Positions 9,147 through 30,455 of a stretch of 64,000 nt of DNA are shown here, piece after piece (position 1 is the first letter of the stretch; each line of letters opens with the position of its first letter). Source of the DNA: Natronosalvus caseinilyticus (lineage in GTDB: Archaea > Halobacteriota > Halobacteria > Halobacteriales > Natrialbaceae); contig NZ_CP071596.1 in assembly GCF_017357105.1 (NCBI RefSeq), forward strand, positions 1,116,001 to 1,180,000, read 5' to 3'. Position numbers and translations under genes: made by a program. The notes beneath the pieces were generated by a model, which did no database searches, was not told the origin of the DNA, and saw nothing but the letters and a program-made list of their open reading frames with translations.

Positions 9147-9508
9147 CGTGGCAGCCAATATTCCGAAGTCGCATAAGTTTCTGTCCAATACACATTGGTT
9201 CGTGACTCGAGACCGGTGGTGAGTTGGGACAGCCGGCTCCAGAGGCCATTGGTTATAACGAATTACACGATGGTGGCCGCTGGAACGCGAACTGTGACGG
9301 TCTCCAGTAGGGCTGGCGGCAGTAGGTTTATAACACCATGCCGCTGGCTGGTGGATTCGAACTGTGACGAAACGTAGCGAGCGCGACGGGGTTACACCGT
9401 ATCGGGGGAATTAATGGTAATTCAGCCCGGATTTCGGCGTTTCAGGGATTTCGAGTTATTTCCCACCATTTGGTCGCCGTCATCGTGTGGTTCGCGACCC
9501 AACGAACC
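9147..9508. other. Left flank of the recombinase-bounded block
   Basis: No gene is seen in this interval. It holds two AT-rich TATA-like boxes, GGTTATAACG near 9250 and GTTTATAACA near 9326, a palindrome-like GAATTAATGGTAATTC around 9409-9424, and the candidate att remnant at 9381. The chromosome-like histidine kinase ends to the left, and the recombinase gene begins to the right. Confidence 0.45.
9381..9390 (+). repeat. Candidate left attachment remnant (copy of tRNA-Arg 3' end)
   Basis: The ten bases GCGCGACGGG, followed by NTT, recur at 36923-36932 inside the 3' end of tRNA-Arg(CCG), in the same orientation. The accessory region lies exactly between the two. Ten GC-rich bases can recur by chance in this genome, so this is a weak candidate. 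Confidence 0.25.
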
Positions 9509-10519
9509 ATGACACTCGAACCGATCGATCCCGAAACCGCGTTAGAACTGTACCTAGCTGAACGAGAAACCGAGTGCTCGGAGGCGACCATCTACTCCCA
9601 CCGGATGCGGCTCGGCTTCTTCCTCCGCTGGTGTGGCAAGCGAGACATCGAGAACCTGAACACCCTTACCGGCCGTCGACTGCACGAGTACCGGCTGTGG
9701 CGGCGGAACGTCGGCGACCTCTCGAAGACCAGCGAAAAGACACAGATGGACACTTTGCGGGTGTTTATCCGGTGGCTCGAGAGCATCGACGGCGTCGAAC
9801 AGGATCTCCACCTCAAGGTCCTGTCGCCAAACGTCACGCCGGACGAGAATACGCGAGACGTGATGCTCGACGCCGAGGACGCGGAGCCGATGCTCGAGTA
9901 CCTCGAGCGGTACGAGTACGCTTCTCTCGAGCACGTGACGCTGTCGCTGTTCTGGCACACGATGATGCGCGTCGGAGCCGCCCGCGCACTCGACCTTGAG
10001 GACTACGACCCGGAGGGGCAGTGTCTCGAGGTCAGGCACCGCCCCGAGTCGGGAACGCCGATCAAGAATCAGCGGCGTGGCGAGCGCATGGTCGCGCTCT
10101 CGGGCGGCACGTGCATCCTGCTGGACGACTGGATCAGGGATCGGCGACCCGACGTGACCGACGACCACGGTCGTCGACCGTTGCTCGCGACGGTCCAGGG
10201 TCGGGCAGCGATCAGTACGCTACGCAAGTACTGCTACCAGCACACGCGTCCATGCGTCTACTCGGGCAAATGTCCACACGACCGCGATCTCGAGGCGTGT
10301 GAGGCGACGGGCGAGACCGGATCGTCTTCGTGTCCCTCGAGCGTCAGTCCACACGCCTTTCGGCGAGGGTCTATAACTCACCACCTCAACAGCGACGTGC
10401 CGGAGACGGCGGTCGGTGATAGAGCGAACGTGAGTCAGGAGGTACTCGCACAGCACTACGATCAACGATCAGAGCGAGAGAAGATGGAGCAGCGACGACA
10501 GTATTTGAACAACATCTGA
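9509..10519 (+). CDS. Tyrosine recombinase A, left boundary of the repeat array
   Basis: A 336-residue tyrosine recombinase. An N-terminal SAM-like arm-binding domain (EPIDPETALELYL...SHRMRLGFFLRWC) precedes the catalytic domain, with R154 (MRVGAARAL), the H282-x2-R285 pair (HAFRRG) and nucleophile Tyr317 (QHYDQR). A Cys cluster between the conserved Arg and His (C249, C255, one more and CPSS) may bind zinc. I start at the ATG giving MTLEPID because the longer frame adds an unlikely hydrophobic leader. A diverged homologue sits inverted at 26023, and the two genes point toward each other across the repeat array. Family members integrate or excise DNA at short sites; that they act on the array repeats is inference. 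Confidence 0.93.
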   Translation: MTLEPIDPETALELYLAERETECSEATIYSHRMRLGFFLRWCGKRDIENLNTLTGRRLHEYRLWRRNVGDLSKTSEKTQMDTLRVFIRWLESIDGVEQDLHLKVLSPNVTPDENTRDVMLDAEDAEPMLEYLERYEYASLEHVTLSLFWHTMMRVGAARALDLEDYDPEGQCLEVRHRPESGTPIKNQRRGERMVALSGGTCILLDDWIRDRRPDVTDDHGRRPLLATVQGRAAISTLRKYCYQHTRPCVYSGKCPHDRDLEACEATGETGSSSCPSSVSPHAFRRGSITHHLNSDVPETAVGDRANVSQEVLAQHYDQRSEREKMEQRRQYLNNI

Positions 10520-10584: not shown

Positions 10585-10786
10585 ATACTAATTGATCACC
10601 CCTTCGCAAATTGGGCCAGATCGCGTGCTACATTCGCGCCCTGTATTCAGCAGATTGTGATCGAACTACCGAGGCGCTGTCAAAAGTGGCGTGCTGAATA
10701 CAGAGCATGAGTGCAGCACGACGACTTCGTTTGTTTCACGTCGAAACCGGTGAACCACCCGCATACTACACGTACTGATTGAGCAC
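10585..10786 (+). repeat. Array repeat, copy a
   Basis: The upstream box TACTAATTGATCACC begins the copy. The core is 10641-10703 with perfect 12-base arms CTGTATTCAGCA and TGCTGAATACAG. A third motif, TGCAGCA, follows at about 10712, then CTTCGTTTGTTTC. A second TACTGATTGAGCAC at about 10773 echoes the upstream box. Confidence 0.9.
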
Positions 10787-10854
10787 TTCCGTATTAGACC
10801 TCCCCACAAAAGCAGGAGAATCCATACGAGTGTAGCGCGTGTATAGTCACGGTA

Positions 10855-11517
10855 ATGAGCGTCATCGTAGAGTTCACAATTGAGGCAGAGGCGTTTACAC
10901 TCGGTAGGGTGCTGTCAGGGCCACCGGTGATGCGTATTGAACTTGAACGAATTGTCCCGACAGGGACATTGGAAATGCCGTTCGTGTGGGCGACCGGAAC
11001 CGACTTCAACGCGTTCGAAACGAAGGTACGTGATAGTCCCTACGTGAAAGAACTCCGCGCCCTCGACAGAATCGGGGACAGCGGTCTGTATCGGGTCGAA
11101 TGGAACGTTCCCCGCGAGGACAACCTCATGGAAGGGATTGCACAGACGAACGCAACCGTCCTCGAAGCGCGCGGGGGCGACACGTGGGAGTTTCGACTTC
11201 GCTTTAACAATCACCATGCCCTCTCACAATTTCACAACTATTGCGTCGCTCATGACTTCCCACTCTTCATCGAACGCACCTACACGTTGCAAGAGACGAC
11301 CGGCAGTGGCCACCAGCTCAACCTCTCGCAGAAACAACGCGAAGCGCTCGTCCTCGCCCTCCAACGGGGATATTTCGGCACGCCACGAGAAACCTCCCTC
11401 GACGAGTTGGCGGACGAACTTAGCCTCTCAAAGCAGGCACTATCAGACCGCATTCGTCGGGGCAACGAGAAGGTACTTCGCTCTGTGTTGCTCTCTTCAG
11501 TAGCCAACTCCGACTGA
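10855..11517 (+). CDS. HTH-10 (bacterio-opsin-activator type) transcriptional regulator
   Basis: A 220-residue regulator. The N-terminal ~145 residues form the sensory region of this haloarchaeal family (begins MSVIVEFTIEAEAFTLG, includes RIELERIVPTG and the WEFRLRF strand). The C-terminal ~70 residues are the HTH-10 domain: LSQKQREALVLALQRGYFGTPRETSLDELAD, then LSLSKQALSDRIRRG with the recognition helix. Three further full or partial HTH-10 genes lie in the same array (22149, 23293 and a fragment at 25000). Cargo of the a-b segment, directly after repeat a. Targets unknown; it may control the DUF7344 gene behind it. Confidence 0.9.
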   Translation: MSVIVEFTIEAEAFTLGRVLSGPPVMRIELERIVPTGTLEMPFVWATGTDFNAFETKVRDSPYVKELRALDRIGDSGLYRVEWNVPREDNLMEGIAQTNATVLEARGGDTWEFRLRFNNHHALSQFHNYCVAHDFPLFIERTYTLQETTGSGHQLNLSQKQREALVLALQRGYFGTPRETSLDELADELSLSKQALSDRIRRGNEKVLRSVLLSSVANSD

Positions 11518-11530
11518 CTGGGAGTGGACG

Positions 11531-11541
11531 GTATAAAAATA
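11531..11541 (+). promoter_or_regulatory. TATA box before the DUF7344 gene
   Basis: GTATAAAAATA is a strong archaeal TATA-like sequence. It lies 52-62 bases before the ATG at 11593, so a short leader is predicted, and it gives the DUF7344 gene its own promoter. Confidence 0.55.
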
Positions 11542-11592
11542 ACCGGATTGATCAAGACACACACTCTCCCACCTAAGACTGGTACGTGTCGT

Positions 11593-11946
11593 ATGCCACC
11601 TGCCACTAATGACGATGAGTCCGCTTCCTTACAGGCAGATATCGCAGTTGGTGACGTGTGTTCTGTGCTTGCAAATGAGTGGTGCCGTTCGGTCCTCTAC
11701 TACTTTCAGGAATCAACGCCCACTGTGGCGTCGTACGAAGCCCTCATCACGCACAGATGCAAGCATGACGATACCATCGACACTCGGGAGCAGGCAGCCA
11801 TCGCTCTCCAGCATGTTACACTGCCAAAATTGGAAGAAGCCGGAATTATCGAGTATGATGGACGCAGTTCCTCCGTTCGGTATCGGGGGTTTCCGCAGTT
11901 GGAGACGATGGTCCGTCTTGTAGCCGAAATGGAAGATGAACTATAG
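11593..11946 (+). CDS. DUF7344-type winged-helix protein
   Basis: A 117-residue protein with the haloarchaeal DUF7344 pattern: VCSVLANEWCRSVLYYFQES, a basic middle part, then ALQHVTLPKLEEAGIIEYDGRSSSVRYRG. This reads as a small winged-helix DNA-binding fold. The family has no assigned function and often sits next to HTH-10 or HalOD1 genes. The first ATG giving an acidic N-terminus is used. Two relatives occur in other array segments (12954 and 25134). Confidence 0.75.
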   Translation: MPPATNDDESASLQADIAVGDVCSVLANEWCRSVLYYFQESTPTVASYEALITHRCKHDDTIDTREQAAIALQHVTLPKLEEAGIIEYDGRSSSVRYRGFPQLETMVRLVAEMEDEL

Positions 11947-12002
11947 CACGGGTCCTCCTTTTTCACCTTGATATTATCTGAATAGCCCGCTACATGTATT
12001 CG

Positions 12003-12156
12003 CTGTACTGAGCGATCACCGTCTTCGCTGATCGAGCCAAATGTCGTGCATCATTCGCGCCCTGTATTCAGCAGAGACTGAACGTTCTGCTCAGATTTTG
12101 TCAGATAGGCTGCTGAATACAGAGGATCAGTTCAGCAATCTGGTTTAATTTGTTCC
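12003..12156 (+). repeat. Array repeat, copy b
   Basis: Upstream box TGTACTGAGCGATCACC; core 12062-12122 (61 bases) with perfect 12-base arms CTGTATTCAGCA / TGCTGAATACAG; third motif TTCAGCA at 12131; then TTTAATTTGTTCC. The loop differs from copy a throughout, so the arms are what is conserved. Confidence 0.9.
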
Positions 12157-13268: not shown

Positions 13269-13382
13269 GCGTACACCTGAGGTCATGATCTCCGTGGGGC
13301 GTATTGAGTAACGGATCACTGGCTCCAGGGGTGGCGTCGTCGATCAGCAATCATTTCTCCCTGGTAAATTGGCTTTGAAGCC

Positions 13383-13497
13383 GTGACACATTCGCGCTCT
13401 GTATGCAGCAGGCAAGATCGGAACTGGCGAGTTGTTGGCAAAAGCGCCCTGCTGAATAGAGAGGTCCTATGCAGCACGACTCCTTCAGCTATTTCGA
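13383..13497 (+). repeat. Array repeat, copy c
   Basis: Core 13399-13461 (63 bases) with arms CTGTATGCAGCA and TGCTGAATAGAG (two mismatched pairs). Third motif ATGCAGCA at 13469, then a diverged CAGCTATTTC. The upstream box is not recognisable in this copy. Confidence 0.85.
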
Positions 13498-13734
13498 GCG
13501 GTCGTAGCCGAACCAACCGAAATAGAAGCTGCGAATCTATCACTGTAGCCCTATTTGAGCGGGGTCGAATCGGCTCGGGAAATGGAACCGCACACAGGCT
13601 TCTCTGGTACGAGCTCCGACCCGGCTACAGACGACCGCCGATACAGTTGCTCGTAGTTTCCGACCCCGCTTCTTGTGAGAACGTCTCCTACTATCTTATG
13701 CACGTGCGGAACCTAATGATAGATGGTGACAGAC

Positions 13735-14169
13735 ATGGCCGCCACAACCACGACGGAGGAGAACAAGCAAATTGCACGTCGCTTCCCGGAAGAAGTAGCG
13801 ACGAAGGGAAACACCGACGTTCTCGAGGAGATATGCGCCGAGGACGTAATTGACCACAGCCCGCTCGGGGAGGCACGAGGCCTCGAGGAACTCGAGGATC
13901 AGATGGAATTCCTTCGCAGCGCGTTCGGGGACTTCTCGGCCACCGTCGAGGACATCGTCGCCGAAGGAGATACCGTCGCGATGCGGGTTACCCTTCGAGG
14001 GACCCACAAGGGCGAATTCATGGGTGTCGAGCCAACTGGCCGAGATTTCGAGGTCGGAAATATGGTCTTCACCCGCATCGAAGATGGCAAAATCGCCGAA
14101 CGATGGGTTCAGCCCGATACTCTCGGATTGATGCAACAGCTCGGGGCCGTCGACCGACCCGAAAAATAA
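13735..14169 (+). CDS. SnoaL-like ester cyclase family (NTF2 fold) protein
   Basis: A 144-residue protein with the SnoaL/ester-cyclase pattern: an N-terminal helix (ENKQIARRFPEEVATKGNTDVLEEI), FADDVIDHSP-like ICAEDVIDHSPLGEARGLE, then strands VRVTLRGTHKGEFMGVEPTGR and VFTRIEDGKIAERWVQPD. Family members bind small molecules in a cone-shaped pocket; most haloarchaeal ones have no known substrate. I start at MAATTTTEENK; a GTG four codons upstream is also open. Sole gene of segment c-d. Confidence 0.85.
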   Translation: MAATTTTEENKQIARRFPEEVATKGNTDVLEEICAEDVIDHSPLGEARGLEELEDQMEFLRSAFGDFSATVEDIVAEGDTVAMRVTLRGTHKGEFMGVEPTGRDFEVGNMVFTRIEDGKIAERWVQPDTLGLMQQLGAVDRPEK

Positions 14170-14240
14170 CCTGACCCCCGTTCTTTCAGCGCAAGCGGGA
14201 AAATGCCTCACCGATCGCGCCAATTTGGTGAATACGTGCT

Positions 14241-14486
14241 CTGTACGCATCGCGTCCGTTTAGAACTCCCCAGCAGCTGTCAGAAGCTGTATGCTGAATA
14301 CAGAGGATGGGCCTTGTTTAGACGCGACCGAGATCGGCACTAACGCTTCGCTCTCATAGTATGAAACCGTACTGTGAGGTGCTTACCATCGGATTCTGTT
14401 TAGTCAAATAACTCCTAACCCGTTCATCCAGGAGCGTCTAAACAGGGCTCAGAGGATGGATTCAGCAAACTGATTTCGTTTGTTCC
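14241..14486 (+). repeat. Array repeat, copy d, interrupted by a MITE
   Basis: Core 14241-14303 (63 bases): a diverged left arm CTGTACGCATCG and a standard right arm TGCTGAATACAG. The copy is cut after GAGGATGG by a 139-base insertion and resumes at 14460 with ATTCAGCA and TTTCGTTTGTTCC. Confidence 0.85.
14311..14449 (+). mobile_element. 139-bp MITE with 10-bp target-site duplication
   Basis: The element begins GCCTTGTTTAGACGC and ends GCGTCTAAACAGGGCT, near-perfect terminal inverted repeats of about 15 bases. It is flanked on both sides by the identical ten bases CAGAGGATGG (14301-14310 and 14450-14459), a target-site duplication. It contains no gene. Its mobilising transposase is not in this window, and removing it restores a normal repeat copy. 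Confidence 0.85.
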
Positions 14487-16529: not shown

Positions 16530-16668
16530 TATACTGATTGATCTGTATCACTACACTAAGCGGCTCTCTCACTGCTGCATTTGCGCTGTGTATCTTGCAC
16601 GACCCGAATCATCTACCGAGAATCTGTCAAAGAGAGAGATTACTGAATACAGAGGACGAGTTCAGGAT
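16530..16668 (+). repeat. Array repeat, copy e (mosaic arms)
   Basis: Upstream box TATACTGATTGATC; core 16588-16652 (65 bases). The left arm GTGTATCTTGCA is of the CTTGCA type, but the right arm TACTGAATACAG is of the TGCTGAATACAG type, so the arms pair poorly. A GAGTTCAGGA stands where the third motif is expected. Confidence 0.8.
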
Positions 16669-16728
16669 CGCTCCACGTTCCCTTCATCGCGCCGACAGGG
16701 GTATCTCCTCGGGGAGCATACCGTGCCT

Positions 16729-17658: not shown

Positions 17659-17708
17659 TCCGGCCATTCGATAGAGTACCAGTATGTAGGTGATAATGCG
17701 GCGGATGA

Positions 17709-17820
17709 GTGCTGGATACGCGCCCTGAGTTCAGCACACACCAAATGAATTGCCCGGCTCCTTTCAGAAACGACGTGAGCGACTCAGAGGATGTATGCAG
17801 CACAGCCAGTTCAATTATTT
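17709..17820 (+). repeat. Array repeat, copy f (covariant arms)
   Basis: Core 17725-17787 (63 bases). The outer arm bases changed on both sides: CTGAGT on the left and ACTCAG on the right, so pairing is kept although the sequence differs from CTGTAT/ATACAG. Third motif ATGCAGCA at 17795. Its tail GGAACCAACCGATACATACGG is shared with copy i. Confidence 0.85.
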
Positions 17821-17999
17821 CGCCATCTCTGGGAGGAACCAACCGATACATACGGATGCTTACTTTCGACGCAACCCCTGCTCCCGTATACGATAATTGT
17901 AAGGAATTTCGCCCTTTAAAGAGCGTGTATGTAGACTTTTCCAACGGGAGAGTATACATGCATCTGTAGTTTCATATTCGGACCCCGCGTGTGTCTCCT

Positions 18000-19178
18000 A
18001 TGGATCGAACACGGGTACTAACCACAGGGTTCATCGTACTACTCGCTGTCTGCCTAATCGTCACCCCAGTACTCGCGCAGGAACAGGGCGAAGACGCAGA
18101 AGAAGAGGGCGGTATTGAAGGGCTCATCGAGGGCTTCGTCGAAGGTCAAGGACTACTGGGTGCATTACTCGTCCTCGCTGGCGGTGGGATCTTGCTGACG
18201 GTTTGCGTTGAGAAACTCATCAGCTATCTCACGCGCACGGCGTTCGGCTTGAAAATCTCGTTGTTCGCCCTCGCGATTCTTTTCACGGGATTCGAATTCG
18301 ACGATACGATTCTCGCGCTTGTTCTGTCTGGCGGTGGTCTCGAGGGAGCGGCGCTCGGGACGGCGCTCGGAACCGGCTTAGCGATTATCGGCGTAACGCT
18401 CGCGCTCGCGGCGATCATCAAGCCGTTCCCGGTCGATCTCCCGCCTGATTACGTCGCCCTCTTTGCACTGGCACCCCTTCTGTTACTTCCGTTCGTCCTT
18501 GCCGGGACACTGACCCTCGTTCACGGACTCTTACTACTCAGCGCGTTTGTCGCGGTCTTCGGCTATATCATCGTCCGCGAATATCAGCGCGACATGCCCG
18601 TGTTCCGGAACACCGAACTGGGCAAGGAGATACAGGCCGATGGTGGCATAGCCCTCCCGTCAGCAGTCTCGACAATCCCCGAGGATCGCCTCATTGGCGG
18701 TCGATCTGCCGCGGGCTGGATCTGGCTTGCTCTTTCTATCCTCGCATTGGCGGGCATCGTAGTGGCGTCGATGATGCTGGAGGCGGGATCGGAAGTCGTG
18801 ATTGACGGATTCGGCATCGAAGAGACCGTTTTCGGAGCGACCATGCTAACGGTGATCCTCACCTTCGAGGACGTAATGCTGACGGTCGAACCGGTTCGTC
18901 GAGGGGTCCCCGAGATCGGCGTCGGGAACGTTATCGGGAGCGTTCTCTTCTCGGTGACCGCCAACGTGGGGGTGATCATGTTAGTGAGCGATCTCGAAAT
19001 CTCCCGGTCGGTGCTGACGTTCCACCTGCCGTCGGTAATTCTCATGACGGCACTCGCCGCGTACTTCCTCTATGCGGGCGAACTGAAGCGGTGGCACGGG
19101 TATCTACTCGGCGGGCTTTACGTCGCCTACTGGCTGATCGCGATCCTCATATTTGGTGGCGTACCAATTAGCGGGTAG
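18000..19178 (+). CDS. Sodium/calcium exchanger (CaCA) family membrane protein
   Basis: A 392-residue membrane protein. Residues 1-26 form a signal-like segment (VLLAVCLIVTPVLAQEQ), followed by an acidic stretch. About ten transmembrane helices follow. The two pseudo-repeats resemble CaCA alpha repeats: GFEFDDTILALVLSGGGLEGAALGTALG and, in the second half, TFEDVMLTVEPVRRGVPEIGVGNVIGSVLFSVTANVGVIML. The acidic residues in both halves (DD and ED) fit cation transport; the ion is not predictable. Sole gene in segment f-g. The ATG at 18000 is preferred to a GTG three codons upstream. Confidence 0.8.
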   Translation: MDRTRVLTTGFIVLLAVCLIVTPVLAQEQGEDAEEEGGIEGLIEGFVEGQGLLGALLVLAGGGILLTVCVEKLISYLTRTAFGLKISLFALAILFTGFEFDDTILALVLSGGGLEGAALGTALGTGLAIIGVTLALAAIIKPFPVDLPPDYVALFALAPLLLLPFVLAGTLTLVHGLLLLSAFVAVFGYIIVREYQRDMPVFRNTELGKEIQADGGIALPSAVSTIPEDRLIGGRSAAGWIWLALSILALAGIVVASMMLEAGSEVVIDGFGIEETVFGATMLTVILTFEDVMLTVEPVRRGVPEIGVGNVIGSVLFSVTANVGVIMLVSDLEISRSVLTFHLPSVILMTALAAYFLYAGELKRWHGYLLGGLYVAYWLIAILIFGGVPISG

Positions 19179-19330
19179 GGTACTATCTTCGGTGTTCAGC
19201 GGTCGAAGTCAACGCTTCCCATGCTATTCTAGCCACCCTCTTCGAGAACCCTAAGGCGACTCGATATAGATTGTGAGGCTTCGTTTTATTCGAGGTCACC
19301 GCGGTTGATCGCCACGATCACTACTTCGCC

Positions 19331-19463
19331 TGTACTGATCGATTACCTCTTCGGAGATCGAGTTAAATCTCGTGCTGCATTCGCCCTCTGTATTCAGCAA
19401 ATCGTGATCGAATTATCGGGGCGCTGTCAAAAATAGCGTGCTGAATACAGAGGATGTATGTAC
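19331..19463 (+). repeat. Array repeat, copy g
   Basis: Upstream box TGTACTGATCGATTACC; core 19388-19450 (63 bases) with arms extended to 14 perfect pairs (CTCTGTATTCAGCA / TGCTGAATACAGAG). The loop is close to that of copy a. The third motif is degenerate (ATGTACCA). Confidence 0.9.
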
Positions 19464-19548
19464 CAGTAGTGTTCGCATCTCGACTGCTTCCTCAATTCGC
19501 GCCGAAATTGAAGTGGCTATCAGGAAAGTCAGGCAAATCTCGATTTGC

Positions 19549-20001
19549 TTATAGATACGGGGGAACGCGTCGACGGTACGCACGATATTCCTCACCGAAT
19601 TCCTGTTCTAACCACTGCTCCTCCCGATGAGTAGCCCAGTGAGTTATGGCAATCACCGCTGGAAGAAAAAGAGCAATCCACCCGTTGTTCTTGAGCAACG
19701 CGAAGCCTGCGTAGAGCATCGTCCACCCAACGTAGATGGGATTTCGGCTGAATGAGTACGGGCCAGTCGTGACGAGCTGTCGCTCCCCACGACCGATAGT
19801 CTTGGCGACCGAATAGAAGGCCCACCCATTGACGAACACCCCCCATCCGATCAGTGCGAGTCCACAAATCCGGGTAATTGACCGATAACGAGTTATTCGC
19901 CACGGCCGGCGAGCATGCAGCGCACTCCCCACAACGATCCCAGCAACGTGAGGCTCCGGCAACGGAGTGTACTCCCAATATTGCCGAATAATTTGGTACA
20001 T
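19549..20001 (-). CDS. Isoprenylcysteine carboxyl methyltransferase-like (ICMT/PEMT fold) membrane protein
   Basis: A ~150-residue protein with four membrane segments and the ICMT/NnrU-like core: VTTGPYSFSRNPIYVGWTMLYAGFALL, then a final HREEQWLEQEFGEEYRAYRRRVPPYL. The RNP-x-Y and EE-x5-F-x3-Y-x3-Y motifs bind S-adenosylmethionine in the family. The substrate is unknown (a lipid or a thiol). A longer start at 20085 is open but adds a basic tail next to repeat h; the ATG at 20001 is preferred. Minus strand in segment g-h. Confidence 0.8.
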   Translation of the reverse strand: MYQIIRQYWEYTPLPEPHVAGIVVGSALHARRPWRITRYRSITRICGLALIGWGVFVNGWAFYSVAKTIGRGERQLVTTGPYSFSRNPIYVGWTMLYAGFALLKNNGWIALFLPAVIAITHWATHREEQWLEQEFGEEYRAYRRRVPPYL

Positions 20002-20130
20002 CAATCGGTATCCACGTATTCGGTCCGCAAGTCGCTTCCGCCTGCCAGGCCATACGACCCGATATTGGTCACCGGTACTATGCAACTGGAGTAGGTTGAG
20101 TTCGACCTTTTCGACGATTCGACGTGAAAG

Positions 20131-20218
20131 ATTCGCGCCTTGTATCTTGCAGAGACTCGACTAACTACTGGACTGTTGTCAGAAGCGACATGCAAGATAT
20201 AGAGGCTGTATTCATCAT
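20131..20218 (+). repeat. Array repeat, copy h (covariant arms)
   Basis: Core 20140-20202 (63 bases). Left arm TTGTATCTTGCA and right arm TGCAAGATATAG pair through compensatory changes relative to copy a. Third motif degenerate (TATTCATCA). No clear upstream box. Confidence 0.85.
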
Positions 20219-20413
20219 TGACTTATTGAGAAAACACAGCGAAAACACTCGGTCATTCGCTGTGGGAAGAAAGGGTTCAACAGGAATACCTGCCCAATCC
20301 CTCATATAATATTATCAGTAGTATGAGGCTTTATACGTGCGAGTCATAGTAGTTGTACGCAATTTTACCCAACCTGGCAGGGGGTGAGAAAGCGCAAAGA
20401 GAGATACTTCAAA

Positions 20414-20968
20414 ATGTCAATCAATAATGGCGTAGATGTAGAGCAACTCGGCCAAGCAGTCGAAGCAATTACAGCGGAATCAGCGACCGGCCAATTCAGA
20501 TTTCGAGCGGAAACCGAATGGACTGATGGCCTGCAGTGTGTCACGTCGATCAACGATTTCGATCAGGCGGGCGAGCAAATTCATACCCAGGAATTCAAAA
20601 TCGAGGGTGACGAGCCGGAACAAATCCTCGGGAAGCGAGCGGCACCCAACGCGGTGGAACTCCTGCTCGCCGCTCTCGGATCGTGCCTGAGCGTCGGGTA
20701 TGCAGCGAATGCCGCAGCCATGGGTATCGAACTCAATGAACTCCGGTTCGAGCTTGAAGGAGACGTTGACCTTCGGGGATTCCTCGGTATCTCCGACGAT
20801 GTCCGTGCCGGGTACAACACAGTGACCTACACCGCGTACATCGACGCTGACGCATCGGATGAGGAACTCGCCGAGCTGCGTGACCGGGTCGAAACCACGT
20901 CACCGTTGATGGACAACCTCATGAACGCTGTCCAGGTCGAAACTGATCTGGTCTCGGTACAGGGATGA
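20414..20968 (+). CDS. OsmC/Ohr-family protein
   Basis: A 184-residue OsmC-fold protein. It contains AAPNAVELLLAALGSCLSVGYAANA, where the Cys of GSC is the conserved peroxidatic position, and a C-terminal strand-helix part ending VQVETDLVSVQG. OsmC proteins reduce organic peroxides or act as thiol carriers; the second reactive Cys of classical Ohr/OsmC is not visible, so peroxidase activity is uncertain. The ATG at 20414 gives MSINNGVDVEQLGQ; the frame upstream is not conserved-looking. The stop overlaps the ATG of the methyltransferase gene (ATGA). Confidence 0.85.
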   Translation: MSINNGVDVEQLGQAVEAITAESATGQFRFRAETEWTDGLQCVTSINDFDQAGEQIHTQEFKIEGDEPEQILGKRAAPNAVELLLAALGSCLSVGYAANAAAMGIELNELRFELEGDVDLRGFLGISDDVRAGYNTVTYTAYIDADASDEELAELRDRVETTSPLMDNLMNAVQVETDLVSVQG

Positions 20969-21744
20969 ATATCATGTCAAAATCACTTGATGTTAGCAAA
21001 CTCGAACGAGAGGTTAAATCCGTCTATCGAGATGTCGCAGAGGCGCCGACCGAAAGGTATCATTTCGAGATGGGCCGCCCATTGGCGGAACGACTCGGCT
21101 ATTCATCGGAGGATCTCGATGGCATCCCTGAGGAAGCCGTCGAGTCCTTCGCGGGTGTGGGATACCACTTCGATCTCGCAGACCTGCAACCGGGCGACGA
21201 TGTCCTCGACCTTGGTAGTGGGTCCGGAACGGACGCGTTTGTCGCGGCACTCCATGTCGGCGAGACCGGGAGCGTGACCGGGGTAGACATGACCGATGAA
21301 CAACTGGAGAAGGCACGACGGCTCCGTGACGAGGCCGGAATGGATACTGTCTCCTTCGAGAAAGCGTACATCGAGGACCTCCCGTTCGAGGACACAACCT
21401 TCGATGTCGTGATCTCCAACGGGGTCGTCAACCTCTCCGCGGAGAAGGAAGACGTGTTCAGTGAGGTCAATCGCGTCCTCGAACCGAATGGCCGATTGGC
21501 GCTTTCGGACATCATCAGCGAGGAACACATGTCTGAGAGCATCAAGACCGATGCGGATCTCTGGGCGGCGTGTATCGGTGGGGCTGAACAGGTCGATGAT
21601 TATACGATGATGATTGAGACGCCAGGGTTCGACGCCATCGAGATCAGGGAGAATCCACAATACGAGTTTGCCTCTGACCAGGCAGTGAACGCGTGTCAGA
21701 AGTACGGTGTCAAGAGTATCTCGCTCAGCGCCAGCAAACGCTGA
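20965..21744 (+). CDS. ArsM-like SAM-dependent methyltransferase
   Basis: A 259-residue class I methyltransferase with motif I VLDLGSGSGTDAF, the acidic loop GVDMTDEQLEKARR, and the post-motif DVVISNGVVNLSAEKEDVFSEVNRVLEPNGRLALSDI. The tail WAACIGGAEQVDDYTMMIETPGF is the arsenite-methyltransferase region. Of the ArsM arsenic-binding cysteines only the C-terminal one (ACIGGA) remains: the N-terminal Cys pair and the Cys of SFGCG (here SFAGVG) are missing. It may therefore not methylate arsenic. Coupled to osmC by ATGA; an internal ATG at 20974 is an alternative start. Confidence 0.85.
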   Translation: MNIMSKSLDVSKLEREVKSVYRDVAEAPTERYHFEMGRPLAERLGYSSEDLDGIPEEAVESFAGVGYHFDLADLQPGDDVLDLGSGSGTDAFVAALHVGETGSVTGVDMTDEQLEKARRLRDEAGMDTVSFEKAYIEDLPFEDTTFDVVISNGVVNLSAEKEDVFSEVNRVLEPNGRLALSDIISEEHMSESIKTDADLWAACIGGAEQVDDYTMMIETPGFDAIEIRENPQYEFASDQAVNACQKYGVKSISLSASKR

Positions 21745-21903
21745 ATCGAGCGTCGTTTGTTATCCTACCAATGGATACTCTTGATGAATAAAACCCCACA
21801 TTCACCGCGCTATTCGTGGCAAACCCAAAGTAGATCAATCCACAGCCTGACGCTATCTTCTCCGTGGGCAATGCCAACCAGCCCAGCTGAATTACAACCA
21901 TGC

Positions 21904-22012
21904 CGAATATGCGCCTTCTATTCAGCAACAGCTGATCGAACTACCGGGGTGCTGCCAGGAACGTAGTGCGAGATACAGAGAATGGATGCAGCACAGCAAA
22001 TTCGTTTGTTTC
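21904..22012 (+). repeat. Array repeat, copy i (mosaic arms)
   Basis: Core 21916-21978 (63 bases). Left arm TTCTATTCAGCA is of the CAGCA type, right arm TGCGAGATACAG of the CTTGCA partner type, so they pair badly. Third motif ATGCAGCA at 21986, then ATTCGTTTGTTTC. The tail AATCAACCGATACATACGGATGC matches copy f. Confidence 0.85.
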
Positions 22013-22148
22013 ACAATCTTAGGCCGGAATCAACCGATACATACGGATGCAGATTGATCGCTGCTTCAGAGGCAATTGGTGAGAGACATGCGGTCTCGTG
22101 TCAATAGTCGGTGGTACGATACAGGAGATATAGTCTTGTTCAATCTTT

Positions 22149-22796
22149 CTATGGGATGATTTCAGAAAGCGTTATTCCAAGAATCTGTTTGATCCCGCGC
22201 CGGAGTCGAGATGCAATAGCCTGCTGTGTGATTCCGAGTTCGTCGCCAAGTTCTTCCATCGTCACTTCGTGAGGTGATTCGAAGTACCCGTGGTTGAAGG
22301 CGAGTACAAGCGCCTCTTGTTGTGCATCAGTTAATGCAGACTGAGTCTCTGAATTGACCGGCGTGAGCGCATGTAGTTCCGTCAATGTGATTGAAATGCC
22401 CAACTCTAAACAGCGGGCCTGAAAATGCGAGATTTCTTTTTGAGTGTCTCCACGGATTTCGAACGTCCACTGCTGGTTCATACCGCTAGCGTTGATGATC
22501 GAGCAATTCGTTTCTGTTAGCGTGCTGAGAACGCCGTTAGAGTCAATGCCTAACTCAGCACGCAACAGGTGCTCGTCTTTGATATCATCAACGAGTTGGA
22601 TATTCTCTACCGCGGAATGTTTGGTTAATGTACTCTCAATATTACCAACGGCAATACCTTGGATCCACAAGTAGATCGTCATGTCTTGGCTGGGAATAAT
22701 CCGTTCTAATTCGACCATCACTTCTGGTCGGTGCTCGAACAGATTGCCCAGAAGAAATTGATTGGGCGGAACGGTAAACGTCGCTTCAACAGTCAT
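22149..22796 (-). CDS. HTH-10 transcriptional regulator
   Basis: A 215-residue HTH-10 protein: N-terminal sensory region MTVEATFTVPPNQFLLGNLFE with VMVELERIIPSQ, then WTFEIRGDTQKEISHFQ, and a C-terminal HTH (LTDAQQEALVLAFNHGYFESPHEVTMEELGD, GITQQAIASRLRRGIKQILG). It is the last gene of a minus-strand group, and its ATG overlaps the stop of the zinc-ribbon ORF upstream (ATGA), so the two proteins are made together. It is a paralogue of 23293-23943. Confidence 0.9.
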   Translation of the reverse strand: MTVEATFTVPPNQFLLGNLFEHRPEVMVELERIIPSQDMTIYLWIQGIAVGNIESTLTKHSAVENIQLVDDIKDEHLLRAELGIDSNGVLSTLTETNCSIINASGMNQQWTFEIRGDTQKEISHFQARCLELGISITLTELHALTPVNSETQSALTDAQQEALVLAFNHGYFESPHEVTMEELGDELGITQQAIASRLRRGIKQILGITLSEIIP

Positions 22797-22951
22797 CGGC
22801 AGTCATCCGTGTTCTTTCTCCAGATATCGGTGTCTTCGCAGCCACACTCCGAATACGTCTTTTTGTATGGAGTGATCTTACCGTCAGGTGTTCGTTTTCG
22901 CCCTAGTCGCAGTGTTCCACAGTTGGAACACATCATTCGATACGGAACCAT
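22793..22951 (-). CDS. Small zinc-ribbon protein coupled to the HTH-10 regulator
   Basis: A 52-residue ORF below usual annotation size. It starts MVPYRMMCSNCGTLRLGRKR and has a second Cys pair in YSECGCEDTDIW, giving a CxxC...CxC zinc ligand set. The stop shares bases with the ATG of the HTH-10 gene. Translational coupling, four spaced cysteines and lack of stop codons make it a likely real gene. Haloarchaea encode many one-domain zinc-finger proteins of this size, several involved in regulation; function here is unknown. Confidence 0.65.
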   Translation of the reverse strand: MVPYRMMCSNCGTLRLGRKRTPDGKITPYKKTYSECGCEDTDIWRKNTDDCR

Positions 22952-23019
22952 ACTGCTGACTGTGCGCCGGTTATTGGGTCGGCATCAATTCTTCCTTCGC
23001 TGAATACTGTCAGTTCAAA

Positions 23020-23169
23020 TCACTCATCATCGAAGGAAGTACTGCCATGCTTCATCGTACCGTTGGTTGAATCGATCACGGCAACTACTGCTAGAGTTGC
23101 CAATTCAGAATTCTCATCGTACGTCGCCTGAAAGAACTCCTCCTCGATATCGTATTCAACAGCGGTCAT
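23020..23169 (-). CDS. Truncated HalOD1-like small ORF
   Basis: A 49-residue ORF, MTAVEYDIEEEFFQATYDEN... to ...AVVAVIDSTNG, ending GSTSFDDE. The segment Tyr-x2-Tyr-Asp...Thr-x-Ala-Val-Val-x-Val matches the opening of haloarchaeal HalOD1 output-domain proteins, but the second half of that domain is missing. The frame is open ~30 codons further upstream without an ATG. It may be a remnant or a short functional partner of the HTH-10 genes on each side. Confidence 0.4.
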   Translation of the reverse strand: MTAVEYDIEEEFFQATYDENSELATLAVVAVIDSTNGTMKHGSTSFDDE

Positions 23170-23292
23170 AGAGTCAACGACATCAATGCTTTCGGGTGTT
23201 TCTCGAGAGGTGTCATCATAACTAACGACGTGCGCCAGTGGGTTGACAATGGCTTTTGCTCGCGCAACATTCTTTTAAGTGCTGTTTAAGTA

Positions 23293-23943
23293 TTATTCTT
23301 GAGACGTTATCAGCGTGCTCGCTACGAGCCGTCGAAGACCACGCTGTAACCGTGATGAAACCGCTTGCCTAGTGATCTCGAGTTCCTCTGCGAGATCGTC
23401 CTGCGTCGCATCACGTGGCGAATCGAAGTACCCGCGAGAATACGCCATCACCAACGCTGTCCGTTGCCCCCCTGTCAGATCGTACTCTCGATCCGATTTG
23501 AGTGATGAGAGCGCATGAAGCTGGGTGAGCTCGATAGGGATGTTGTGTTCTCGGCAGTACGTTTGAAAATTCGATATTTCTCGTTGTTCATCAGCGCGAA
23601 TTTCAAATGTCCACTTTTCTTCATCTCCTATCCCGGAAAGGAGATTGACCTCCGTGTTGGTGATCGCCGTGAGAACACTTTCATGATCGAGGTTCCACTC
23701 AATCCGGACAAACATCTGTCCCTCTACTTCATCAATTATCTTCACCCGGTCAATCCCGATGTCGTCACTCAAATCGGTCGTGAGGTCGTCGGTGGTATCG
23801 GCATAAATCCAGAAGTAGGGGATTATAGCATCGTTCGTGGGAACAATTCGATCCAGTTCGATAGTGGCATCGGCCAATTGATTAAAAACGGCACTCAGCG
23901 GGAAGTCTTCTTGGTCGATGGTGAATGAGGCTTCAATGGCCAT
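23293..23943 (-). CDS. HTH-10 transcriptional regulator
   Basis: A 216-residue protein collinear with the 22149 gene: MAIEASFTIDQEDFPLSAVFN, IELDRIVPTNDAIIPYFWIYA, KWTFEIRADEQREISNFQTYC, and the HTH LTGGQRTALVMAYSRGYFDSPRDATQDDLAEEL followed by EITRQAVSSRLQRGLRRLV. The ATG at 23943 gives the family N-terminus; the longer frame upstream is unlikely. Two similar regulators in one segment suggest duplication or stacking of cassettes. Confidence 0.9.
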   Translation of the reverse strand: MAIEASFTIDQEDFPLSAVFNQLADATIELDRIVPTNDAIIPYFWIYADTTDDLTTDLSDDIGIDRVKIIDEVEGQMFVRIEWNLDHESVLTAITNTEVNLLSGIGDEEKWTFEIRADEQREISNFQTYCREHNIPIELTQLHALSSLKSDREYDLTGGQRTALVMAYSRGYFDSPRDATQDDLAEELEITRQAVSSRLQRGLRRLVASTLITSQE

Positions 23944-24190
23944 AGATACGACTAGCGGGACGTCCCCTTGAGTTAGTCGCTGCTGCCGGAGCGCTCTGCG
24001 GAAAGACTCTTTGGTCAAACAGTTATACCAGCGAGAGAATCGATCTGAAAATCGGCTGCAAAGAAGAATAACGGTCTGCTATGTGGATCTGCGTATATCG
24101 GCCTGATCACATCGGTCTGGTGATGTACGGTCATTTCTGAAAATCCGCCATTACAACCGTCATTTCTACTAATAAAGGCTGGTATCTGGT

Positions 24191-24724
24191 TTACTTACAC
24201 CGCTGAACAGCCGTTATGAGTTGGCTTTTTGGAAGCCACTCGTCAGAAAGGGTGGGAAGGTTATCTCGGTTGTGGAACTGTTGGTAGTGGTCTCGAAGAC
24301 GATTCTCTGACCGCTCGTGGCGGTCGGTATCGGCACCTGTCTTTTCACCCCATTCTAGAGTGAATGAATCCTGTGAGCGAGTCCCATCAGTGGCTGGGCC
24401 GCTGCGGACTCTTTGAAAAGAATTGCGTCCTCGGTCTCTCTGGAGATGCATCCAACGAACATTGTGGGTGGGGCTCTGTCCGTGACTCCACCCTTCTCGT
24501 CGGCCAACCAATCTGGCAGTTGAATGAAAATCTCATCGGTGCCAAGGAGTCCCAACAATTGCCACAGTTGCCGGGTTTTCTGTTCGTTGAGAAGCCCCGT
24601 TCCCGGTTTCTTCGAGAGAGACATCGTAGTCAGCGAGGGTATCTGAATGCCACGTACGGGCAAATGAGTCGTAGTCGGCGTATTCGGTAATCAGGTCAGT
24701 CACTCCGACACAAAGGGGGTACAC
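24191..24724 (-). pseudogene. Frameshifted remnant of an unknown accessory gene
   Basis: Three minus-strand frames join end to end: MYPLCVGVTDLITEYADYDSF... to about 24610, then LLNEQKTRQLWQLLGLLGTDEIF... through FKESAAAQPLMGLAHRIHSL to about 24360, then EWGEKTGADTDRHERSENRL... to 24191. Each piece has protein-like composition and hands over within about 20 bases to the next, so one ~175-residue protein with two frameshifts is the simplest reading. I do not recognise the family. Confidence 0.5.
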
Positions 24725-24805
24725 ACATTAATATTACACTGATCCTGACAGCTGTTTTGATCAGAGACTGCGAAATACCCGGAGTCGTCGTGCTACATGC
24801 ATGCT

Positions 24806-24962
24806 CTGTACTGATCGATCACCCCATCCAGATTGGCTCTCACTTCGTGCGACATTCGCGCTTTGTATCTTGCAGAGGCATAACGAACTACCGAACTGCT
24901 GTCAGAAATGGCGTGCGAGATACAGAGGGCCCATTCAGCACGACGACTTCGTTTGTTTCACG
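24806..24962 (+). repeat. Array repeat, copy j
   Basis: Upstream box CTGTACTGATCGATCACC; core 24863-24925 (63 bases) with arms TTGTATCTTGCA / TGCGAGATACAG, all twelve positions paired if two G-T wobbles are allowed. Third motif ATTCAGCA at 24933, then CTTCGTTTGTTTC. The tail (to about 25005) is nearly identical to that of copy a. Confidence 0.9.
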
Positions 24963-24999
24963 CCGAAGCCCGAGAACCACCCGCTCACTACACGTACGT

Positions 25000-25099
25000 A
25001 CAAGCAGGAACCGGTATCTCACAGCAGGCAATTGCCTCTCAACTCCAGCGAGAGACGCGGAGAATCCTCGGCAATACCCTCACTGTGCTGGAGACCTGA
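25000..25099 (+). pseudogene. C-terminal fragment of an HTH-10 regulator
   Basis: The frame reads GTGISQQAIASQLQRETRRI and ends LGNTLTVLET stop. This matches the last helix of the HTH-10 genes in the array (GITQQAIASRLRRGIKQILG). Nothing of the N-terminal 85% is left, and the fragment begins right where the tail of repeat j ends. It is a scar of a deletion or cassette exchange at the repeat. Confidence 0.7.
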
Positions 25100-25133
25100 A
25101 CTCGAATCTATATAAGGAAGTTGTATAGACAAA

Positions 25134-25526
25134 ATGAAGTCTCACGTGGAGCGGTCTCTTCAAGTCGAGTATACAATGTTCACGGAAACCGACTCCTCGC
25201 CAATGATCCCCGGAAGAGATACGCTCCTTCTCGCGCTCGCCAATCGGCACTGTCGTTTTGTCATCGAATACTTCAAAAACGCGCCCGAAGACCACGCTAC
25301 CGTCGACGACATTGCAACCGCGTTCGCCCGACGTGACCACGCAGACGAGACCCGGGTTGCAATCCGGCTCCACCACGCTGCACTCCCCAAACTGGACGAC
25401 GCTGGACTCGTTGACTACGACAGGCGGACCAAAACGGTCCGATATCACGGTCACTCGCAACTCGAACAGATAGCGGAGCGCTTCTCCGAGTCCCCCAACT
25501 GCCATGGAGGAGTGAGTAGTCCATGA
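25134..25526 (+). CDS. DUF7344-type winged-helix protein
   Basis: A 130-residue protein with the DUF7344 core: LLLALANRHCRFVIEYFKNAPEDHATVDDIA, then AIRLHHAALPKLDDAGLVDYDRRTKTVRYHG. A TATATAAGG box lies 20-25 bases before the ATG, supporting a leaderless mRNA. An internal ATG at 25176 is a possible alternative. The stop overlaps the start of the HalOD1 gene (ATGA), so the two are translationally coupled, an arrangement common in haloarchaea. Confidence 0.8.
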   Translation: MKSHVERSLQVEYTMFTETDSSPMIPGRDTLLLALANRHCRFVIEYFKNAPEDHATVDDIATAFARRDHADETRVAIRLHHAALPKLDDAGLVDYDRRTKTVRYHGHSQLEQIAERFSESPNCHGGVSSP

Positions 25527-25816
25527 CGCAAGACAGGTCCAGGCAAGCGAGCAAGACACGGGGATGGTACACCCCTGATCAGGACCGCTCGTTAACCGAA
25601 GCGGTGCTTGACGCTATCGAGGACTATAAGGGGGAAGATCTCCTGCGAGCAGATTTCGTCCTCTACGAGGACGTAAACCCTGACGCTCTCAATTCCCTCT
25701 TTCGCCCCGATGCACAGTCGAGAACGACCGTGACGTTCGACACCGACGGGGTCACGGTCGAACTCCGGGGGAATGGCGGGGTCGAGATCCGCGTCACGGA
25801 CCGATCAGTCGACTAA
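25523..25816 (+). CDS. HalOD1 output-domain protein
   Basis: A 97-residue HalOD1 protein: SLTEAVLDAIEDYKGEDLLRADFVLYEDVNPDALNSLF is the signature first half, and TTVTFDTDGVTVELRGNGGVEI is the beta-hairpin end. HalOD1 domains are haloarchaeal output modules of signalling proteins or stand alone, with unknown activity. Translationally coupled to the DUF7344 gene; together they fill segment j-k. No sensor domain is present. Confidence 0.85.
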   Translation: MTQDRSRQASKTRGWYTPDQDRSLTEAVLDAIEDYKGEDLLRADFVLYEDVNPDALNSLFRPDAQSRTTVTFDTDGVTVELRGNGGVEIRVTDRSVD

Positions 25817-25890
25817 GTGGCCGAAGATGGTCCAGAACGCGCTCTGGAGCCAGTATCGGATAGACGACCACTGCCGCGATGAGTGCTTCA

Positions 25891-25960
25891 CTGTACTGAG
25901 TGCTCACCACTTCGGAGATCGATCTAAATCTCGTACTGCTTTCACGCCTTGTATTTAGCA
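25891..25960 (+). repeat. Array repeat, copy k (left half, right end of the array)
   Basis: Upstream box CTGTACTGAGTGCTCACC, then TTCGGAGATCGATCTAAATCTCG as in copy g, and left arm TTGTATTTAGCA at 25949-25960. No right arm follows before the recombinase B stop codon at 26023. Confidence 0.75.
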
Positions 25961-26022
25961 CGACTTCTGAAATATGCCACTGACCAAGCGTTTCAACAGA
26001 GCCGTTCTTCCTCAATCCTCGA

Positions 26023-27138
26023 TTACTCCTCTAGAAGCGACCGACGCAATACCTCCTGGCGCTGGCGCATTTTGTCCTCCTCCGACCGAACATCGTAATG
26101 CTCGTCGATGATCGCCGGTGAGACGTTACATCGCTCGCTCACGACCTGTACGTCGACGCCAGACCGGAGGAGCTGCGTGATGTACCCTCGACGGATCGGG
26201 TGGGGCGTCACGCTCGAGGGACACTTCGACGCAAGATCGAGATCGGTGGCCGCGCTGCATTCATCTGGATCTCGATCGTGCGGACACTCAAGACCGATGA
26301 GGCATGGTCGGGACCACTTGTAGACGTACTTTCGAATCGTCGACTTGGCGATTCGACCCTGTGTGGTAGCGAGTAGCGGCACCCGGTCGTGCTGGTCGGT
26401 CACGTCGGGCCGCTGGTGCTCGAGGTAGTCGTCGAGTACCTCGCACGCCTCGTCGGAGAGTCCGACTCGACGCTCGCCTCGAGTACCGTTCTTAATCGGT
26501 GTGTCGGTCTCCGGTCGGTGGACGACGGTCAGGTGGGGGACCTCGGCGTCGCATCGGTAGTCATCGATGTCGAGCGCCCGAGCGGCTCCCATTCGCATCC
26601 CCGTCTCAGACAGGACGAGCCAGACGACGTGCTCGGTCGAGGCGTACTCGTACTTCCTGAGGTGCTCGAGGATCGTTCGGGCACGGTCGGCGTGGATGAC
26701 CGTCTCGCGGGCGTTTTCGCCGTCGGGGATCGCCGGCGACTTGACTTTCTTGAAGAGGCCGGACTCGACCGAGTTGATCGTCTCACACCACTCGACGAAG
26801 ACGCGTAACGTGTCCATCTGCGTCTTCTCGCTTACGACGTTGAGGTCCTCGCGTCGCCAGACGCGATACTCGTGGAGGTCGCGGGCGGTCAGGTCGTTGA
26901 GGTTCTCGAGGTCGCGCTCGCGACACCAGTCGACGAAGAAGCCGAGCCGGGATCGGTGCGCGTCGACCGTCGACTGTCGACAGTCGCGCGCCTTGTCTTC
27001 GAGGTAGAGTCCGAGAGCTTTCTCCGGTTCGATTGGCTCGAGGCTTGTCTCCGTCGCTTCGTGGAGCTGTCGGAGCAACCGCTCGGCATCCGACTCCTCG
27101 ACGATCGTGGGGACGTGATTTGTCTGACTCATTGGCAT
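26023..27138 (-). CDS. Tyrosine recombinase B, right boundary of the repeat array
   Basis: A 371-residue tyrosine recombinase homologous over its length to recombinase A (shared LGFFVDWCRERDLENLNDL, SEKTQMDTLRVF, RMGAARALDIDDY, HRPETDTPIKNGTRGERR). The catalytic Arg, HPIRRG and Tyr (EHYDVR) are intact, and the same Cys cluster is kept (RPCLIGLECPHDRDPDEC...KCPSS). It carries ~35 extra N-terminal residues. Its ATG overlaps the CopG-type gene by ten bases, so a small DNA-binding protein is co-expressed with it. It points into the array from the right. Confidence 0.93.
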   Translation of the reverse strand: MPMSQTNHVPTIVEESDAERLLRQLHEATETSLEPIEPEKALGLYLEDKARDCRQSTVDAHRSRLGFFVDWCRERDLENLNDLTARDLHEYRVWRREDLNVVSEKTQMDTLRVFVEWCETINSVESGLFKKVKSPAIPDGENARETVIHADRARTILEHLRKYEYASTEHVVWLVLSETGMRMGAARALDIDDYRCDAEVPHLTVVHRPETDTPIKNGTRGERRVGLSDEACEVLDDYLEHQRPDVTDQHDRVPLLATTQGRIAKSTIRKYVYKWSRPCLIGLECPHDRDPDECSAATDLDLASKCPSSVTPHPIRRGYITQLLRSGVDVQVVSERCNVSPAIIDEHYDVRSEEDKMRQRQEVLRRSLLEE

Positions 27139-30424: not shown

Positions 30425-30455
30425 TGCTGAATACAGAGCGTGTATCTTACACATA
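30425..30455 (+). repeat. Remnant of the array repeat outside recombinase B (copy l)
   Basis: The right arm TGCTGAATACAG and the following AGAG are exact, then CGTGTATCTTACAC. No left arm is present. It lies 3.3 kb outside the recombinase-bounded block, so the block was once larger or the repeat moves independently. Confidence 0.7.

Follow-up and report, generated by a model that had tools for sequence, protein, structure and literature searches.

The repeats in the 64-kb window, the whole stretch of DNA that was analysed, are probably the sites of recombination in an integron-like system of haloarchaeal gene cassettes, in which a recombinase other than IntI would act on quasi-symmetric sites. 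Its platform would pair a recombinase gene with a lone attI-like core site downstream, and each cassette would be a gene-sized segment closed by an attC-like double site. The cassettes would be joined through strand exchange within a spacer and could in this way be gained, lost and moved between genomes. The main enzyme is likely to be IntD, a relative of the tail-fibre invertase Int1 of phiCh1, and IntB, next to the local array, may act too. The paired changes of the inner arms would then reflect mirror symmetry, both arms binding the same recombinase specificity while the subtypes drift.

Site anatomy and the local array

All full copies of the repeat are composed of two inverted tyrosine-recombinase core sites of ~27 bp that flank a loop of ~39 nt, in the order R''-L''-loop-L'-R'. 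Each core site has two 10-bp arms with a conserved 7-bp spacer between them; the R arms have the consensus sequences TGCNNCATTC and GNATNCAGCA, and the spacers read GCGCYYT and AGAGGAT. The double-site consensus lacks RYYYAAC / GTTRRRY crossover boxes. In the perfect copies a, b and g the inner arms are paired at 12/12 positions, with neither bulges nor extrahelical bases. The arms fall into the specificity subtypes TTCAGCA, CTTGCA, GCAGCA and CTCGCA, and the arm motif is found 20 times in the window, with 0.74 matches expected by chance.

The array is bordered by two recombinase genes, intA, whose stop codon lies 104 bp before site a, and intB, which reads towards the array and whose product is 53% identical to IntA (Table 1). 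A second copy of cassette j-k, about 90% identical, lies elsewhere on the chromosome, at locus L146, where it is accompanied by site j. The left break of this duplicated cassette falls exactly within the left spacer. At the right end, however, similarity stops ~40 bp before the core site and not in the spacer, which counts against the proposed exchange.

Table 1. Recombinase genes, core sites and cassettes in the 64-kb window
Feature	Positions	Strand	Description
IntA	9470..10519	+	Tyrosine recombinase, 349 aa, left border; N-terminal SAM-like and catalytic domains (Pfam PF02899/PF00589)
Double site a	10624..10720	+	Inner arms 10641-10652 / 10692-10703
Cassette a-b	10721..12044	+	HTH_10/BAT regulator (10855-11517) and DUF7344 protein
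Double site b	12045..12139	+	
Double site c	13382..13478	+	
Cassette c-d	13479..14223	+	SnoaL-like protein (13723-14169)
Double site d	14224..14320	+	Degraded; right spacer split by a 140-bp element (14310-14449)
Double site e	16571..16669	+	Hybrid arms GTGTATCTTGCA/TACTGAATACAG, left CTTGC type, right TTCAG type
Double site f	17708..17804	+	Arms CTGAGT/ACTCAG at 17725-17730 / 17782-17787; other stem half broken
Cassette f-g	17805..19370	+	Na/Ca exchanger-family protein (17991-19178)
Double site g	19371..19467	+	Perfect 12-bp inner arms
Cassette g-h	19468..20122	-	Phospholipid/isoprenylcysteine methyltransferase-like protein (19549-20085)
Double site h	20123..20219	+	Arms TTGTATCTTGCA/TGCAAGATATAG at 20140-20151 / 20191-20202; two G-T wobbles
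Cassette h-i	20220..21898	+	OsmC-like protein and SAM methyltransferase
Double site i	21899..21995	+	Hybrid arms TTCTATTCAGCA/TGCGAGATACAG
Cassette i-j	21996..24845	-	Two HTH_10/BAT regulators
Double site j	24846..24942	+	Arms TTGTATCTTGCA/TGCGAGATACAG at 24863-24874 / 24914-24925; two G-T wobbles
Cassette j-k	24943..25933	+	DUF7344 and HalOD1 proteins
Site k	25934..25960	+	Single core site, attI-like, 62 bp past the IntB stop codon
IntB	26023..27138	-	Tyrosine recombinase, 371 aa, right border (Pfam PF00589/PF02899)
Site m	30425..30451	-	Solitary core site; attI-like flank (..GGTTCAACAGAGCC) as in k; no adjoining recombinase

A first-pass annotation of this DNA had reported that both arms change together in copies f, h and j, and had concluded that structure rather than sequence is conserved, with a loop that is free to drift. 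The arms quoted for the three copies are indeed present at the positions given in Table 1, and apart from their wobbles h and j have no mismatches. Nevertheless, the choice of copies was favourable. In the second half of the f stem (TCAGCA/TGAGCG) only 2/6 positions pair, and copies e and i, which had been left out, are hybrids with arms from two different subtypes; together with L010, they are hybrid-arm copies that persist. Thus, the observation is partly confirmed. The loop is less conserved than the rest of the site (mean of 0.65 bits over its columns, compared with 1.0-1.4 in arms and spacers), but it contains the conserved words CTACCGA and TGTCA.

Covariation and folding of the inner arms

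A sequence-only collection from about 50 genomes of haloarchaea gave 212 unique copies. We compared the pairing of their inner arms with that of reassorted halves, thinned the copies by identity and applied offset controls. In register, 75.1% of the inner-arm positions are Watson-Crick pairs, versus 69.4% in reassorted halves (z 8.4, 212 copies), and z remains 3.1 after thinning to <70% identity. With an alignment fitted to the structure, the pair-count covariation score is 0.215, as compared with 0.121 +/- 0.006 for shuffles and 0.010-0.078 for slid partners. The in-register covariation of the inner arms is therefore real. Against a tree-based, R-scape-like null, in contrast, no pair is individually significant among the 212 copies; that null is weak, and because the tree of the 96-nt chimeric copies is poor we relied on reassorted halves and identity thinning. 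The covariation anticipated by the first-pass annotation is thus found with the former null and not with the tree. The outer arms within a site show no covariation excess. Pairing of the outer arms between the opposite ends of a single cassette, as would occur in a circular cassette, was also considered and rejected, its excess being no larger than with a wrong neighbour.

These covarying arms might be explained by the folding of one strand of the double site, with L''/L' and R''/R' paired, into the true substrate, as in bacterial attC sites, compensatory changes keeping the fold. The use of both spacers as break points is what one would predict if a site that lacks extrahelical bases can fold on either strand: a bacterial attC stripped of its extrahelical bases recombines at R' or R'' depending on the strand (PMC2727003). 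The copies also fold better than mononucleotide shuffles (-12.7 vs -9.7 kcal/mol); as the arms are conserved and palindromic, this comparison shows nothing more. We nevertheless regard such a folded substrate as unlikely, from tests that carry no calibration on bacterial attC sites. In a folded strand G-T should be better tolerated than A-C, so the flat G-T/A-C ratio (1.11 vs 1.09 in the null, with no excess) speaks against it. The top strand and the bottom strand do not differ in folding (p 0.84), and real copies have no folding advantage over chimeras built from different copies (-0.4 to -0.6 kcal/mol, p > 0.25). Moreover, it is the outer arms, the rest of an attC stem, that lack covariation.

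Alternatively, a mutational process might account for the matching arms, template switching within the palindrome copying one arm onto the other at replication without selection on fold or binding. Strict Watson-Crick matching with no wobble preference fits this idea, but conserved spacers, the linkage to recombinases and the common specificity subtypes are left unexplained, and hybrid-arm copies should not persist as they do; we consider it improbable.

Dyad symmetry for a recombinase dimer fits the data equally well as, or better than, a folded strand. The co-change of the arms points to a mirror-symmetric recombinase site and does not prove a folded hairpin. We infer that the sites are recombined, as duplexes rather than folded strands, and that one of the linked enzymes acts on the local array. 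The earlier interpretation is thus partly supported: the likeness to attC sites holds for the anatomy, the arrays and the attI-like site beside a recombinase, whereas selection for a fold is not supported, and 'structure, not sequence' is contradicted by the strong sequence conservation of arms and spacers in the double sites.

Recombinases, arrays and breakpoints

IntD represents a family of short recombinases (~235 aa) that comprise a catalytic domain only, devoid of the core-binding (N-terminal DNA-binding) domain. The catalytic R, HxxR and Y are kept, R64, R183 and Y215 being invariant and H180 present in nearly all members. In 27/30 loci, a core site lies 30-102 bp past the IntD stop codon (p <= 0.01 per locus vs shuffles), and these single sites have no hairpin. 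Seven loci have IntD genes that are 94-97% identical; there, identity amounts to 0.68-0.95 up to the spacer and drops to ~0.25 within about 20 bp beyond it, a loss of similarity that resembles what an attI would produce. Sites are found in 25/28 genomes with IntD versus 166/363 others (Fisher 5e-6). A candidate attI-like single core site also adjoins IntB and IntC, and at IntC the recombinase gene is followed in turn by the single site, an ORF and a double site. In the genome of the window, a site lies within ~110 bp of the end of 4/19 recombinase genes (binomial 1.7e-7); an IntD gene of this genome is located at C1:3020749-3021447. At the threshold used, IntD was not found in several genomes of the same genus that have sites; therefore, action in trans, loss or another enzyme would be needed there.

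IntA-like recombinases were rejected as general partners. Only about 9 of ~90 genes of this family have a core site downstream, and at 3/73 of the named loci a full site is present within 10 kb. As the family is mostly unlinked to the sites, IntA and IntB may be bystanders.

The sites are present in 191/391 Halobacteria genomes and 62/86 genera, and one genome, G386, harbours about 120, mostly in same-strand arrays. Adjacent sites are on the same strand in 140/148 pairs, with a median gap of 930 bp. Clear ORFs are lacking in 59/167 cassettes, and ORF direction appears random (60 vs 48, p 0.29), ORFs having been chosen by acidity, which makes this count approximate. All-against-all HSP ends were blurred by the similarity of the sites (38 usable ends), and we used instead site pairs that share one flank only. 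Among 13 such pairs, whose averages are noisy and of which we retained only individual clear examples, several have clear breaks in a spacer, and both spacers serve as break points.

Many sites are solitary and some IntA-like genes adjoin single core sites, as if the repeats were attachment sites of integrative elements with IntA/B/C-type recombinases, or a dispersed palindromic repeat, the gene arrays being incidental. The long same-strand arrays with gene-sized spacing, the fixed site beside one enzyme family and the single cassettes common to different genera at 95% identity make this quite improbable. Still harder to credit is that the repeats encode a structured RNA or a terminator. The hairpin does sit between genes, but there are no Rfam matches in the array, no wobble excess and no strand preference; gene orientation is random, and the hairpin is missing from the single core sites beside recombinases.

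Relationship to known systems

Like an integron, the proposed haloarchaeal system features a recombinase gene with an adjoining single site, and its arrayed cassettes each have a double site, R''-L''-loop-L'-R', that is an imperfect palindrome. Tandem cassettes with sites in one orientation, breaks next to the R arm, large arrays and arrays without a recombinase are further common traits, as is the putative attI-type site next to IntD. In contrast with integrons, the recombinase is not IntI (TIGR02249, 19.9 bits for a cut-off of 265) and has no N-terminal DNA-binding domain. IntD, IntA, IntB, IntC and the G386 recombinase all score far below the NCBIfam integron-integrase cut-offs (best 54.1 bits vs 265). 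The haloarchaeal sites also differ in their sequence-conserved arms and spacers, a consensus without a GTTRRRY box, perfect copies without extrahelical bases and the use of both spacers, and their randomly oriented cassette ORFs differ from those of integrons with a platform promoter. PMC9668308 makes no mention of haloarchaea.

Among relatives of IntD with a reported role, the nearest is Int1, the haloviral tail-fibre invertase of phiCh1, phiH1 and ChaoS9 (PMC6210493, PMC6471424). They share the catalytic-only build, the R/HxxR/Y residues and a CGYC motif, at 42-43% identity, 43% in the case of phiCh1 Int1. Int1 differs from the role proposed for IntD: it inverts a single segment, with long inverted repeats on both sides, around the int1 gene itself. 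The phiCh1 repeats were rejected as homologues of the core sites, as they contain no match to the core consensus.

XerA, XerC and XerD are the nearest solved structures and NCBIfam matches, all far below family cut-offs, and IntD differs from them in lacking the core-binding domain. The pdif modules, which are Xer recombination modules, occur in both orientations and use host XerC/XerD and asymmetric dif-like sites. In the haloarchaeal system, by contrast, two core sites combine into a composite site, and the recombinase is a dedicated one with a site of its own. By analogy only, its gene segments resemble the pdif modules of Acinetobacter plasmids in being bounded by short tyrosine-recombinase core sites (PMC12907356).

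On balance, we lean towards an independently evolved haloarchaeal counterpart of integrons in about half of the sampled genomes. Its recombinase, of the phiCh1 Int1 type and with a catalytic domain only, would capture cassettes through quasi-symmetric double core sites usable from either end, and large arrays would have been missed so far, with enzyme and site both outside integron models. If so, the system would account for the way in which regulators, transporters and stress genes are acquired and shuffled in haloarchaea, whose gene exchange is known to be heavy, and the integron design would have arisen with a second kind of recombinase. Why attC sites fold could then be asked in a similar anatomy without obvious strand polarity, in haloarchaea with good genetics for such a study, such as Haloferax volcanii.

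Site architecture and symmetry of the arms

The left half of a full copy reads, in register, TGCNNCATTC-GCGCYYT-GTATNNNGCA and the right half TGCNNNATAC-AGAGGAT-GNATNCAGCA, separated by a loop of ~39 nt that contains CTACCGA and TGTCA. Each half is an inverted repeat of ~10 bp with a 7-bp spacer in the middle, a layout typical of tyrosine-recombinase core sites. A search with a model built from 14 copies detected ~35 full copies, together with single core sites, in the genome; the arm motif has 20 matches in the window versus 0.74 expected, far above chance. The first-pass annotation held that structure rather than sequence is conserved. This view is contradicted by the mean information of the arms (1.0-1.34 bits), spacers (1.28-1.40) and loop (0.65), which shows that the sequence itself is conserved, most strongly in the spacers.

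The arms quoted for copies f, h and j of the window array are indeed present at their positions. As proof that arms change together, however, they are favourable examples: copy f has lost half of its stem, and e and i each combine two arm types. We gathered 212 unique copies with a sequence-only profile, which kept structure from influencing the selection. Covariation was borne out for the inner arms, with 75.1% Watson-Crick pairs versus 69.4% after reassortment of the right halves across copies (z 8.4). The z score was 5.5 with copies thinned to <80% identity and 3.1 at <70%, and a pair-count tool agreed. The excess is confined to 5 of 12 pairs, is absent at most register offsets and is weak at -3 and +3. 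It did not extend to the outer arms of the same copies, and under a tree-based null none of the pairs in the 212 copies was individually significant. Dyads within simple sites gave z ~2 before thinning.

The claim that a folded hairpin is under selection fared less well. G-T pairs are depleted in the inner arms like A-C pairs, with a ratio of 1.11 versus 1.09 expected in a wobble test uncalibrated on bacterial attC sites. With DNA parameters, the top and bottom strands fold alike (-12.75 and -12.73 kcal/mol, p 0.84), and real copies are a non-significant 0.4-0.6 kcal/mol better than left/right chimeras, a comparison also uncalibrated on bacterial attC. Hence, the arms are kept mirror-symmetric, and nothing in these tests shows selection for one strand's fold.

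Cassettes, break points and insertions in the spacers

Sites are present in 191 of 391 Halobacteria genomes, one of which (G386) harbours ~120. In the fetched arrays, neighbouring sites lie on the same strand in 140 of 148 cases and are separated by a median of 930 bp; cassette ORFs run both ways (60/48). The window cassettes encode HTH_10/BAT regulators, a Na/Ca exchanger, an EamA transporter, OsmC, methyltransferases, SnoaL, DUF7344 and HalOD1 proteins. Long, closely spaced minus-strand ORFs lie to the right of the array.

The cassette between site j and single core site k recurs with its site elsewhere in the genome (locus L146) at ~90% identity. The left spacer of site j is the exact place where similarity begins; at the other end the similarity fades ~40 bp short of the core site. 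Many sites, among them a, b, g, j and k, have a conserved leader, CTGTACTGANNGATCACC..CTTCGCAGATCGA, some 60 bp to the left of the core, and in the duplicated cassette the similarity ends at this leader, not at the core site. Site pairs with only one flank in common (6 left and 7 right) were compared, and several of them, such as L127/L139, L129/L145 and L121/L125, break clearly within one of the two spacers, left or right. One segment is 95% identical across genomes from different families. The use of both spacers fits a quasi-symmetric site. A folded mechanism may also operate, since the strand likewise decides where bacterial attC sites break once their extrahelical bases are removed (PMC2727003).

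Two elements that share GGCCTTGTTTAGA ends, an IS and a 140-bp MITE, are located within site spacers, recalling the elements that target attC in bacterial integrons. The insertions are flanked by 9-bp target duplications, CAGAGGATG and CGCGCCCTG. By eye, the transposase looks IS5/IS4-like, and the element seems to prefer recombination sites.

Coordinates of recombinases, single core sites and other features
Feature	Location	Remarks
GGCCTTGTTTAGA-ended elements	window 14310-14449; L144 ~6247-7180; L124 4988-5990	
Minus-strand ORF run	window 31468-35741 (-)	
IntD	own genome, C1:3020749-3021447	short recombinase; single core site just past stop; found via PF00589 scan
IntC	G000:C1:3514169	paralogue; single core site, then one ORF, then full site
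XerA-like recombinase	L124 (G386:C1) 8835-9770 (-)	311 aa; ~320 bp from single core site at array end
Single core sites with GGCTCTGTTGAAACC-like flank	window 25934-26001, 30391-30451; L011 3215-3288; L144 ~7200-7260	

Recombinases adjoining single core sites

The recombinases IntA and IntB are convergent, one on each side of the array. A single core site follows the stop codon by ~60 bp in both IntB and IntC; the majority of other IntA-like genes are unlinked to sites. The XerA-like enzyme of L124 (196 bits against the archaeal XerA model, just under its cut-off) adds a third type to the recombinases found next to these sites. Several single core sites, with or without an adjoining recombinase gene, share a flank resembling GGCTCTGTTGAAACC...GATAGG...GTCG; they are possibly orphan attI sites, or another mobile-element end.

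A homologue of IntD is carried by 89 of 391 genomes, and a core site lies 30-102 bp past the IntD stop in 27 of 30 loci examined. It comes in two types, with a spacer resembling that of the left (GCGC) or right (AGAGGAT) half of a full copy. Seven loci whose IntD genes are 94-97% identical share their sequence through the core-site spacer and are unrelated beyond, as would be expected for a candidate attI with differing first cassettes. In IntD, the tyrosine-recombinase residues are intact and a CGYC motif is invariant; the protein matches PF00589 only, without an N-terminal core-binding domain. It shares 42-43% identity with phiCh1 Int1, an enzyme whose inversions are reported to switch the tail-fibre genes, and scores 19.9 bits against the integron-integrase family (cut-off 265). 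We infer that IntD would act on the window array.

Relation to described integrons

Our search of open-access papers found no description of a haloarchaeal system of this kind. PMC9668308 describes archaeal integrons of the IntI type, with haloarchaea unmentioned there, and in the parts consulted of a review of archaeal tyrosine recombinases (PMC8371274) integrons appear only as a bacterial use. On these grounds, and since several defining integron features tested for were not found, we file the haloarchaeal cassette system, as read from sequence, as new, putatively integron-like by its way of working and outside the IntI family.
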